Below, one piece after another: positions 48,080 to 51,339 of a stretch of DNA of 64,000 bases. This DNA is from Kangiella marina (lineage in GTDB: Bacteria > Pseudomonadota > Gammaproteobacteria > Enterobacterales > Kangiellaceae), in contig NZ_BAABFV010000002.1 in NCBI RefSeq assembly GCF_039541235.1, positions 372,001 through 436,000 on the forward strand. Reading direction: 5' to 3'. The first letter of the stretch is position 1. The number at the start of each line of letters is the position of its first letter. The position numbers and the translations under genes are program-made. The notes under the pieces are model-generated. The model had not been told where the DNA came from and made no database searches. It worked only from the letters and a program-made list of their open reading frames with translations.

Positions 48080-48559
48080 ATGATTGACTTCACTGATAAA
48101 GATCATCAATTTATGCAGCGAGCCTTTGAGTTAGCCGAAATGGCTAAGGAGAAGGGCGAGGTGCCTGTCGGTGCTGTTTTAGTGAAGGGTGATACAGTCA
48201 TTGGAGAGGGCTTTAACCAGCCCATTTTGAGCAATGATCCGACGGCGCATGCTGAAGTGGTGGCTCTGCGCGAAGCTGGAAAAGTATTAGAGAATTATCG
48301 CCTGGTTGATACCACTTTGTATGTGACGCTTGAGCCTTGCGCTATGTGCGCCATGGCTTTGGTTCATGCTAGAGTGGCTCGCATCGTTTATGCTACAGAT
48401 GATCCTCGCACTGGCGCTGGTGGGAGTGTGCTGAACATTCTTGAGCATGAGTCCTTCAATCATCATTGTGAGGTCGAGACTGGCTTGTTAAAAGAGCAAT
48501 GTTCTGAGCAGTTAAAGGCTTTCTTTAAGGCTAAACGCGATAAAAAGCGCAGCAAATAA
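48080..48559 (+). CDS. tadA: tRNA-specific adenosine deaminase
   Basis: Makes inosine at position 34 of tRNA-Arg(ACG). Zinc deaminase signature HAEVVALREAG (His57, catalytic Glu59) and PCAMCAMAL (Cys87, Cys90). 159 residues with the usual basic C-terminal end (KAKRDKKRSK). Follows guaA, as in relatives, after the 264-bp repeat-bearing gap. Confidence 0.95.
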   Translation: MIDFTDKDHQFMQRAFELAEMAKEKGEVPVGAVLVKGDTVIGEGFNQPILSNDPTAHAEVVALREAGKVLENYRLVDTTLYVTLEPCAMCAMALVHARVARIVYATDDPRTGAGGSVLNILEHESFNHHCEVETGLLKEQCSEQLKAFFKAKRDKKRSK

Positions 48560-48570
48560 CCAAATTATAT

Positions 48571-48598
48571 TTGACAAACTTTCGATTTTTACTATATT
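48571..48598 (+). promoter_or_regulatory. Promoter of the lysAC leader
   Basis: A perfect TTGACA (48571-48576) and TATATT (48593-48598) with a 16-bp spacer. The expected start of transcription, 5-8 bp after the -10, falls at about 48604-48606, that is at or next to the ATG of the leader peptide. Confidence 0.75.
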
Positions 48599-48605
48599 CA
48601 AACAC

Positions 48606-48680
48606 ATGAGAACATTATTAATCGTTAAAAAACACAGCAAGAAGGCGCTAAAAAAACGCGTCCTATTATGCTGTGGGTGA
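48606..48680 (+). CDS. Lysine-rich leader peptide of lysAC (24 aa)
   Basis: ATG 48606 to TGA 48678-48680 encodes a 24-residue peptide: MRTLLIV, then KKHSKKALKK, then RVLLCCG. Six of 24 codons are Lys, in three pairs (48627-48632, 48639-48644, 48651-48656). No Shine-Dalgarno precedes it, and the predicted transcript begins at the ATG, so it may be leaderless. Its role would be to report charged tRNA-Lys to the attenuator that follows, not to make a functional protein. Such short biosynthetic leaders are known for his, trp, phe, leu, ilv and thr operons. Confidence 0.75.
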   Translation: MRTLLIVKKHSKKALKKRVLLCCG

Positions 48681-48742
48681 ATGAAACGATAGTAATTACG
48701 AATCAATGAAACCCGCACAGGACATCCTTTGCGGGTTTTTTT
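48633..48742 (+). promoter_or_regulatory. Transcription attenuator upstream of lysAC
   Basis: Four segments: 1, CACAGCA (48633-48639), inside the Lys codons; 2, TGCTGTGGGT (48669-48678), overlapping the leader stop; 3, AAACCCGCACAG (48709-48720); 4, TGCGGGTTT (48730-48738) followed by a T-run to 48742. 1:2 pairs over 7 bp. 2:3 pairs as TGTGGGT with ACCCGCA (7 bp, one wobble) or through CTGTG with CACAG. 3:4 is a 9-bp terminator stem with an inner AGG/CCT. A ribosome stalled at Lys codons would mask 1 and favour 2:3; a ribosome reaching the stop would mask 2 and allow 3:4. Confidence 0.75.
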
Positions 48743-48780
48743 ATGCCTAATGAAAACATTACATATTGAGGAATAGGAGA

Positions 48781-51339
48781 ATGGCAACAAACAACTCTTG
48801 GCATTTGCTTAAGTTTGGGGGAACGAGCGTTTCCACTCGCCAAAACTGGGATAATATTGCGAGCATTATTAAGCGCAAACGTGCTAAAGGTAAGAAGGTG
48901 TTTGTTGTGCACTCGGCTGTCAGCACCGTTTCAAACCGACTTGAGGCATTGATCGAGCTGGCGCGACTGGGTGAATACCATACGGCTTATGAGGAGTTGA
49001 TCAATCTTCATCAGCGTCTACTTGCTGAGATGGAGTTACCAAACGATTTACTGAATGATCGTTACAGTTATCTCAAACGATTAATAGATGGTATTCACTT
49101 GCTGGGTGAGGTTAGCGACAGAGTCCGAGCCCTAGTAATGGCACAGGGTGAGCTTTGGTCTACTACTATTGGGCAGACTTATCTTGGCAAGGTGTTTGAC
49201 GAGTCGGTTGCTTGGCTTGATGCGCGGGACTACTTGTATGCTCGTGAAAGTCGAAATCTGGATTACCTCTGTGCGAGCTGTCATTTTGAGCCTGATCAAT
49301 CATTGCTTGAAGCCGTTGAGCAGAACCCTGTAGTGATTACTCAAGGCTTTATAGCGAATACTCGTGATGATGAAACTGTTTTGCTAGGGCGGGGCGGGTC
49401 TGACACTTCAGCGGCTTATTTCGCGGCGAAAGTTGAAGCAGAGCGGTTAGAAATTTGGACTGATGTTCCAGGAATCTTCACGGCGAATCCAAACCAAGTT
49501 GCGAGCGCACGCTTGCTTAAACAGCTTAACTATGAAGAAGCCCAAGAGATGGCGTCAGCCGGCGCTAAGGTTTTGCATCCACGAGCTATCCGACCGGCTC
49601 AAATTAGCCAAATTCCAATTTATATTCGTTCCACCATAGACCCTGACATTGATGGTACCGTGATTAGCGGCATCGAAAATAGTTGGGGCATGGTCAAAGC
49701 GATTACGGCGAAAGAACAAATCACTTTAATTTCGATGGAAAGTCAGGGAATGTGGCAGCAAGCCGGGTTTTTGGCTGATATCTTTGCCATTTTTAAGCAA
49801 CATAATGTATCGGTGGATTTGGTCTCAACGTCAGAAACCAATATTACAGTCAGCTTAGACAGCTTGACGCAAGTGGTGAATGATAGGCAGTTAAAAGGTT
49901 TGATTGAAGAGCTATCCGACATGTGTCGCGTTAAAGTGATGCAGAATTGTTCAGCTGTTTCTATTGTGGGTAAAAATGTACGTGCAATATTACATAAAAT
50001 CGCGCCAGCATTTTCAATTTTTGAAACCTATAAAGTCTACCTATTGTCACAAGCTGCTTCTGATTTAAACCTAACCTTTGTGATTGATGATGAGCATAGT
50101 AGCAAAGTTATATCGGCGTTACATGAACTGTTAATCACCAATAATCCAAACAGTGAAATATTAGGGCCGACGGCCAAAGAATTAAAGCAAACCGACAGCT
50201 CGGTTGAGACTAGGAAGTGGTGGCTGGACAAACGAGACACGATAGAGATGTGCCTGTCAGAGCGTGATAGTGCTTATATCTATCACTTAGACTCGATTAA
50301 AGACAATATTCAAAACTTACAAAGTATCAGCGCTATTGATCGTATTTTCTTTGCCGTTAAGTCCAATAATAATCGAGATGTATTACAGACCGCTTATAAC
50401 GCTGGAATCGGCTTTGAGACCGTTTCAAGCGGTGAGGTGAATCATATATTGGAGTTATTTCCCAGTATTGATAAATCACGAATATTCTTTACACCAAATT
50501 TTGCCGATAAGCGAGAGTACGATGAAATATTGCAAAAAGGGATTCGTCTGACACTAGATAGTACTTACCCGTTAAAACACTGGCCAGAAATTTTTGAAGG
50601 GAAAGAAATCTTTTTACGGGTCGATCCAAATATCGGTAAGGGCCACCATGAAAACGTTAGAACGGCTGGAGCAACGTCTAAATTCGGGATTCCCATCTAC
50701 GAGCTAGAAGAGCTTGCCCCCATTATTGAGCACCATAATATCGATATTGTTGGACTGCATGCTCACGCAGGAAGTGGCATTTTAACCAATGAGCACTGGG
50801 CAGAGCATGCTCGATTATTAGCTGAGACGGCTTCTCTTTTTCCACGAGTGAAGTATTTAAACTTGGGGGGTGGCTTTGGCATTAAAGAACGCGCACAACA
50901 AACCGAGTTAACCATGGGGCAAATTGACCAAAGTTTACAGGTTGTTAAAGCTGAGTTTCCACAGTATCAACTTTGGATTGAACCAGGTCGTTATATTTCG
51001 GCGAATACGGGTGTGTTGGTTTCAAAGGTTACTCAAGTGAAGCAGAAACAAAACTACTATTATGTTGGTTTGAACACGGGTATGAACTCGCTCATGCGTC
51101 CAGCGCTTTATGGTTCGTTCCACAACATCGTTAATCTTACTCGCTTGGATGCTGAAAAAGAACATTTAGCGACCATTGTCGGGCCGATTTGTGAGAGTAC
51201 GGATAAGCTGGGTGTTGAAATTCCCTTCCCTGAAACCTTTGAAGGGGACTTGATACTGATTGAAAATGCTGGCGCTTACGGACGTGTGATGGCGACTCAA
51301 TATAATATGCGTCAGCCAGCAGAAGAGGTGTGTATTTAA
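48781..51339 (+). CDS. lysAC: Bifunctional aspartate kinase / diaminopimelate decarboxylase
   Basis: First and last enzymes of lysine synthesis in one 852-residue chain. N-terminal aspartokinase: KFGGTSVS at ~11, GRGGSDTSAAYFAAK near 206, EIWTDVPGIFTANP, then regulatory ACT-like domains (~310-455). C-terminal LysA: PLP lysine in FFAVKSNNN (Lys527), HAHAGSGI, GGGFGIKE, EPGRYIS and GPICESTD (Cys804). ATG 48781 follows AGGAG closely and GAGG a little further up; an upstream in-frame start at 48766 is unlikely. Similar fusions are known in Xanthomonas-type bacteria. Regulation is by the attenuator just upstream. Confidence 0.94.
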   Translation: MATNNSWHLLKFGGTSVSTRQNWDNIASIIKRKRAKGKKVFVVHSAVSTVSNRLEALIELARLGEYHTAYEELINLHQRLLAEMELPNDLLNDRYSYLKRLIDGIHLLGEVSDRVRALVMAQGELWSTTIGQTYLGKVFDESVAWLDARDYLYARESRNLDYLCASCHFEPDQSLLEAVEQNPVVITQGFIANTRDDETVLLGRGGSDTSAAYFAAKVEAERLEIWTDVPGIFTANPNQVASARLLKQLNYEEAQEMASAGAKVLHPRAIRPAQISQIPIYIRSTIDPDIDGTVISGIENSWGMVKAITAKEQITLISMESQGMWQQAGFLADIFAIFKQHNVSVDLVSTSETNITVSLDSLTQVVNDRQLKGLIEELSDMCRVKVMQNCSAVSIVGKNVRAILHKIAPAFSIFETYKVYLLSQAASDLNLTFVIDDEHSSKVISALHELLITNNPNSEILGPTAKELKQTDSSVETRKWWLDKRDTIEMCLSERDSAYIYHLDSIKDNIQNLQSISAIDRIFFAVKSNNNRDVLQTAYNAGIGFETVSSGEVNHILELFPSIDKSRIFFTPNFADKREYDEILQKGIRLTLDSTYPLKHWPEIFEGKEIFLRVDPNIGKGHHENVRTAGATSKFGIPIYELEELAPIIEHHNIDIVGLHAHAGSGILTNEHWAEHARLLAETASLFPRVKYLNLGGGFGIKERAQQTELTMGQIDQSLQVVKAEFPQYQLWIEPGRYISANTGVLVSKVTQVKQKQNYYYVGLNTGMNSLMRPALYGSFHNIVNLTRLDAEKEHLATIVGPICESTDKLGVEIPFPETFEGDLILIENAGAYGRVMATQYNMRQPAEEVCI

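Follow-up and report, generated by a model that had tools for sequence, protein, structure and literature searches.

Leader-peptide attenuation is a known class of regulatory mechanism. The His, Leu, Thr and Trp attenuators of proteobacteria (RF00514, RF00512, RF00506 and RF00513) have in common a promoter, a short ORF rich in codons for the end product, 1:2, 2:3 and 3:4 pairings that exclude one another, and an intrinsic terminator upstream of the biosynthetic gene. Lysine synthesis is commonly described as monitored by a riboswitch that binds free lysine; in many gammaproteobacteria this L-box (RF00168) controls the first and final steps of the pathway through early termination. The main survey of proteobacterial attenuators, that of Vitreschak et al. 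(2004), reportedly lists no lysine case. In the open literature, supplements aside, and as far as the available text of the sources extends (including PMC10117765, PMC4117421, PMC2965389, PMC1262725, PMC2659441, PMC12925634, PMC9413887 and PMC2258182), we found no lysine leader-peptide attenuator described; the L-box is named as the RNA control of lysine genes in the available part of PMC1262725. According to the available text of PMC10117765, the attenuator leader peptide of peTrpL/rnTrpL in Sinorhizobium meliloti is translated from a leaderless mRNA beginning at AUG, and SEP5 of Sinorhizobium is proposed as a possible leader peptide; this small ORF lies in the 5' UTR of an aspartate-pathway gene and contains three Lys codons.

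Here we analysed a stretch of 64,000 nucleotides from Kangiella marina (contig NZ_BAABFV010000002.1, positions 372,001 to 436,000), referred to as the window. One region in it had been read, from the letters of the DNA, as a lysine-codon leader peptide and attenuator controlling lysAC (the original prediction), a reading that our comparisons and models support. We consider the region very probably a transcription attenuator of the ribosome-mediated kind, with charged tRNA-Lys as its signal and lysAC as its target. It shows the features of leader-peptide attenuators that sequence and model can address, its proposed function resting on comparison and modelling. The likeness to the His, Leu, Thr and Trp attenuators covers all the parts listed above, and the differences are that the Kangiella leader uses Lys codons, scores below the Rfam gathering scores and leaves no room for a Shine-Dalgarno site. 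The L-box, in contrast, binds free lysine and needs no ribosome. Unlike peTrpL/rnTrpL, which responds to tryptophan in an alphaproteobacterium and whose leaderless start has been shown experimentally (PMC10117765, available text), the Kangiella leader would respond to lysine, its leaderless start being deduced. SEP5 differs in that it has mostly Thr codons (six) and its gene is annotated as aspartate dehydrogenase, the available part of PMC10117765 describing no attenuator structure for it. Lysine as the amino acid, together with the likely leaderless start, sets the Kangiella element apart from the attenuators known to us.

Layout of the leader region in Kangiella marina

On the plus strand, tadA is followed by the promoter, the leader ORF, the terminator and lysAC (Table 1), the last encoding a fused aspartate kinase/diaminopimelate decarboxylase and being the gene presumed to be under control of the leader. 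The upstream promoter, the 24-codon ORF with three Lys-Lys pairs and the competing 1:2, 2:3 and 3:4 pairings of the original prediction were all recovered, the pairings at the places given for them. Lys takes up six of the 24 codons, and a run of seven A lies within them. The terminator had been described as a 9-bp stem with a tail of seven T; the seven T are present, but in place of a plain 9-bp stem the fold has 8 bp plus an inner 3 bp. It ends 38 nt before lysAC. Segment 1, predicted to lie within the Lys codons, needs a more precise wording, as its outer part corresponds to the His-Ser-Lys codons between the first and second Lys pairs, while the placing of segment 2 at the stop codon was correct.

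Table 1. Positions of the parts of the leader region and of the flanking genes in the window
Feature	Position	Strand	Description
tadA	48080-48559		upstream of leader region; NF008113
Promoter	48571..48598	+	-35 TTGACA 48571-48576, 16-nt spacer, -10 TATATT 48593-48598; 11 of 12 consensus letters
Leader ORF	48606..48680	+	MRTLLIVKKHSKKALKKRVLLCCG*; 24 codons; Lys at codons 8, 9, 12, 13, 16 and 17
Segment 1 (CACAGCA)	48633..48639	+	partner TGCTGTG 48669-48675; from folds and cross-clade energies
Inner hairpin of the 1:2 structure	48644..48662	+	loop holding Lys codons 16 and 17; from covariation over 18 loci
Segment 2	48669..48678	+	48669-48675 is the partner of segment 1; TGTGGGT 48672-48678, which extends into the stop codon, is the partner of segment 3
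Segment 3 (ACCCGCA)	48711..48717	+	pairs with segment 2 as antiterminator, also forms the terminator's 5' arm; from folds
Terminator (3:4)	48710..48742	+	stem 48710-48737, seven T 48736-48742; -16.6 kcal/mol
lysAC	48781..51339	+	NF006515, 1227 bits against a cut-off of 802; Pfam domains

The combination is rare by composition. Among the 470 ATG-started ORFs of 15-40 amino acids in the window, two contain three KK pairs and one, the leader ORF, also has a terminator no more than 130 nt downstream; 30 shuffled windows together held 19,300 such ORFs, of which one carried three KK pairs and none carried three KK pairs together with a terminator. The leader folds at -43.9 kcal/mol, compared with -24.3 (sd 2.9) for 200 shuffles, none of which was as low (z -6.8). 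Between 48000 and 49000, the only promoter-like site on the plus strand is the one ahead of the leader, and across the genus loci 23-82 positions separate the end of the T-run from the beginning of the lysAC match; transcription of lysAC must therefore mostly cross the terminator. The leader ORF has no protein family match, and no Rfam family scored over its cut-off anywhere in the window, the His, Leu, Thr and Trp leaders staying below their gathering scores there. The sub-cut-off scores at the site were 24.5 of 100 bits for SQ2397, 22.3 of 49 for His_leader and 18.3 of 50 for Leu_leader.

Conservation and start of the leader within Kangiella

The gene lysAC was found in 19 of 20 genomes of the genus, and the same 19 match the leader sequence model. 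In the remaining genome (G017), neither lysAC nor the leader was found; what did turn up was a lysC-like kinase and, at 25% identity, a distant decarboxylase. One leader is split over two contigs (G011) and was excluded from the counts, which refer to the 18 loci with an intact leader. All 18 repeat the layout of leader, stop position and terminator. The upstream regions of related lysAC genes, to which the original prediction had pointed as a source of evidence, thus still show, in every intact genus locus, the pairings and a leader ORF containing Lys codons.

Nine related leaders, all 24 codons long, allow a gap-free comparison; their pN/pS is 0.37 in the coding frame, and the two other frames give 1.68 and 0.89. 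For all 18 loci, codons were aligned by anchoring at the hairpin, which leaves codons 8-19 free of gaps. Lys is present in all 18 at codons 13 and 16, in 17 at codon 12, in 16 at codon 8, in 15 at codon 9 and in 14 at codon 17. As had been expected of a conserved Lys-rich ORF, the nucleotides change while Lys is retained, AAA and AAG being interchanged at codons 8, 12, 13 and 16. Lys accounts for 10-29% of residues in the leaders, compared with 5-8% in LysAC, and the non-Lys part of the peptide drifts between three clades. Taken as sequence comparison, these data indicate that the leader ORF is under coding selection and that its regulatory Lys codons are kept.

One leader (L020, genome G015) is an outlier, with three Lys, no KK pair and five Met counting the start. 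Its relatives have 5-8 Lys; in this leader, Lys sensing could be decaying, or Met could be sensed as well.

A point absent from the original prediction concerns the start of the leader. In the window the ATG stands just 7 nt past the -10 box, so there is no room for a Shine-Dalgarno site. The -10 box (of promoters with 10 or 11 of 12 letters) ends 6-8 nt before the ATG in 15 of the 18 loci, which puts the usual start point of transcription at the AUG; the spacing suggests that the leader mRNA is probably leaderless and starts at AUG. A Shine-Dalgarno site before the leader ORF is usual for attenuators but not defining, and at these 15 loci the spacing leaves the leader without one. The three loci outside the count are L016, L017 and L018, the first of which, by eye, apparently has a longer 5' stretch.

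Inspection by eye also turned up other leaders. In the same genome as the window, a Thr/Ile leader ORF, MIISRTTTTTTTIILTEVGG*, with a terminator precedes a thrA-type aspartokinase (L098; G000:C2:126000-127800, minus strand), and its ATG lies 7 nt past a -10-like TAATCT. A Trp leader in genome G003 has the 7-nt spacing too, and leaderless leaders may be a habit of the genus Kangiella. Genome G003 also carries two consecutive Trp-rich leader ORFs, MNINIAQNIWWWHVA and MTIDAQQHTFLTASWWWFQ, each with its own terminator downstream (L064 and L094; G003:C310:4300-8000). They precede an apparent DAHP synthase gene and a trpE-like gene (names assigned by eye) and are possible tandem trp attenuators.

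RNA pairing, ribosome position and competing explanations

A terminator follows the ORF and precedes lysAC in all 18 loci (-10.5 to -17.2 kcal/mol), and in all of them the fold of the RNA past the last Lys codon pairs the stop-codon region with the 5' arm of that terminator, at -8.9 to -15.9 kcal/mol. When this stretch was shuffled for comparison, the energy of the 2:3 pairing reached the 5% level in nine of the 18 loci. In the window it is unexceptional, with 14% of 300 shuffles folding as well, and the weight of the pairing there comes from its conservation. Compared with synonymous recodings, leader folding was better at the 5% level for 10 of the 18 loci, and no excess was seen for L009 (234 of 500 recodings); the mean z was -1.96.

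Covariation was assessed on 18 sequences, 11 of them distinct. The hairpin within codons 13-19 shows double-sided changes in six of six pairs across the 18 loci, with 89.4% of cells paired against 75.7% in shuffles. Its covariation value is 0.739, compared with 0.409 when shuffled and at most 0.252 with the partners slid; none of 500 shuffles was as high, a count that is not a probability because the rows are related. The sixth pair is unformed in seven of the 11 distinct sequences, that of the window among them. To compare pairings between clades, the loci were divided into three groups by their C-terminal codons. The outer 1:2 pairing is spelled differently in each group, and own-pair mean energies of -10.2, -12.1 and -12.4 compare with cross-group values of -6.0 to -9.2. 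The 2:3 pairing showed no group specificity (own -14.3, -14.8 and -13.8; cross -6.2 to -14.7), because segment 3 hardly varies. The compensatory changes envisaged in the original prediction are found in the leader hairpin. The 1:2 pairing has better energies with partners of its own clade, and the 2:3 helix shows no clade-specific co-adaptation.

To model ribosome position, RNA was hidden up to a point 12 nt beyond the first base in the A site and equilibrium folds were computed; attenuation itself, unlike such folds, depends on timing. Since the scored 2:3 helix was itself taken from a masked fold, the result is a contrast between ribosome positions and not evidence that the helix exists. In all 18 loci, the mean probability of the 2:3 helix over the Lys codons was 0.82-0.99, and it was 0.00 with the ribosome at the stop codon, although single early Lys codons can score low (0.01 at codon 2 of L006). 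With no ribosome the probability was at most 0.27 in 13 of 18 loci; it was 0.43 in L018, 0.58 in L021, 0.80 in L004, 0.82 in L020 and 0.92 in L019, five loci where the 1:2 structure is thus not predicted to hold 2:3 under 0.4. When the RNA behind the ribosome was also left free, in five of the 18 loci, Lys codons before the last pair gave 0.8-1.0 and the stop codon 0.01-0.30, and late Lys codons dropped to 0.20-0.25 (L016), 0.53 (L010) and 0.31-0.52 (L017). The model suggests that antiterminator and terminator exclude each other and that ribosome position would choose between them, late Lys codons excepted in some loci.

Other explanations of the region were weighed against these data. The peptide is strongly basic, and the seven-A run in the window's Lys codons could slow ribosomes; an arrest peptide, or general slowing at basic residues or A-runs, would sense a free ligand such as lysine or a polyamine, or the translation rate, rather than charged tRNA-Lys, and ligand-sensing leader peptides (TnaC, SpeF) do exist. 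An arrest motif, however, would not be expected to drift as the non-Lys sequence does among the three clades, AAG replaces AAA at four positions and interrupts the A-runs, and the conserved C-terminal Cys and Gly codons overlap segment 2, so that RNA pairing accounts for them. We regard this explanation as very improbable. Because terminators after genes are common and the ORF matches no family, one might instead see a plain tadA terminator with an unrelated promoter, the small ORF being a chance occurrence or encoding a functional basic peptide and lysAC not being attenuated here. Yet the promoter sits between tadA and the terminator, there is scant room for a further promoter ahead of lysAC, and the window holds a single such ORF-terminator pair, its 30 shuffled versions none. 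With leader, stop position and terminator also retained at all 18 loci, this account appears highly improbable.

Control by an L-box or another metabolite-binding RNA would not be surprising in this order, where 34 of 99 searched genomes have an L-box. The original prediction had named an L-box as a finding that would speak against it. None was found in the window, in the whole genome or in 39 other genomes of the family (40 of 40 without it, under stricter filters), and the 34 cases are among the 59 other searched genomes of the order (same filters); 16 further genomes, 15 of them with lysAC, also gave none. Together with the lack of any Rfam match over cut-off in the window, this makes a riboswitch here extremely improbable.

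The lysine attenuator would operate as follows. Transcription would begin at or beside the leader AUG. With ample lysine, the ribosome would reach the stop codon and hide segment 2, and the 3:4 terminator would halt transcription ahead of lysAC. Under lysine shortage, the ribosome would wait on a Lys codon and hide segment 1, so that 2:3 could form in place of the terminator and lysAC would be transcribed; if the leader were not translated, the 1:2 structure would tend to hold segment 2, leading to termination. The parts, their conservation, the Lys coding constraint and the compensatory RNA changes in this scheme come from sequence and comparison, the structure at each ribosome position is modelled, and we infer that the ORF is translated, that its mRNA is leaderless, that ribosomes stall on it and that the system responds to lysine. 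With its conserved and covarying Lys leader, the scheme would mean that lineages without an L-box watch the lysine pathway via charged tRNA-Lys read by the ribosome, making two sensor types on one pathway directly comparable in related bacteria. If the leaderless start is real, this would be a gammaproteobacterial attenuator working without a Shine-Dalgarno site.

Lysine-rich leaders outside Kangiella

In other genera of the family, five lysAC loci (L022, L024, L026, L027 and L030; the partial loci L025 and L031 were left out) have no such leader, and neither do three lysAC loci from another family (L023, L028 and L029). No terminator was found in the 13 stretches scanned, of 15 in the family, before lysC, lysA or similar decarboxylases (L086 and L093 were left out). 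Outside the genus, the leader model matched in five of 79 genomes at 23-27 bits; the three matches inspected (G094, G074 and G080, leaving G050 and G093) are terminators without such a leader.

Class-wide, lysAC was present in 14 of 369 genomes, and one of 13 lysAC loci outside Kangiella, in genome G384, has a Lys-rich leader with a terminator. Among 398 genomes drawn from the phylum, five further lysAC loci yielded no terminator in the four scanned (L138 was left out). G384 and two relatives of the same genus (G464 and G465; loci L130, L131 and L132), from another gammaproteobacterial family, carry the leaders MRSMTSKCKRVKQEADSKKLFPAR, MRFISKCKPAIKEAGSDVLFIAR and MIGMCAKRKVEKKEVSKKLGSAR*, with five, three and six Lys, and a terminator upstream of lysAC; here the antiterminator uses sequence past the stop codon. 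In the masking model of these loci, the 5' arm of the terminator pairs upstream with a probability of 0.6-1.0 at every position up to the last codon, 0.21-0.35 with the ribosome at the stop and 0.59-0.93 without a ribosome. The model there can thus tell a ribosome at the stop codon from a stalled one, but it does not distinguish Lys from other codons, or stalling from absence of translation. The leaders of this genus differ from those of Kangiella in letters and layout, which points to a likely independent origin of the two. We lean slightly towards the view that Lys attenuators arose more than once in gammaproteobacteria without an L-box, always upstream of the lysAC fusion gene. In Kangiella, where the leader ORF seems to open the mRNA, attenuation would then depend on leaderless initiation instead of a Shine-Dalgarno site.

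A further family, that of G264, was considered and rejected as a carrier of Lys attenuators, since its leaders have only 1-4 Lys and the Lys codons do not consistently favour the antiterminator. Masking of seven loci gave low antiterminator values at Lys codons in L127, L141, L144, L147 and mostly in L152, and high ones in L149 and in L146, the latter run starting from a too early ATG. Among the 18 lysAC loci of this family (L127 and L140-L156), 17 have a terminator and 14 a conserved leader ORF with ARQR, ending ARQRC-like. In 13 of the 18, a promoter of the form TTGA(C/T)N-17-T(N)TACT lies 6 nt before the start codon (gaps of 4-10 being the ones allowed).
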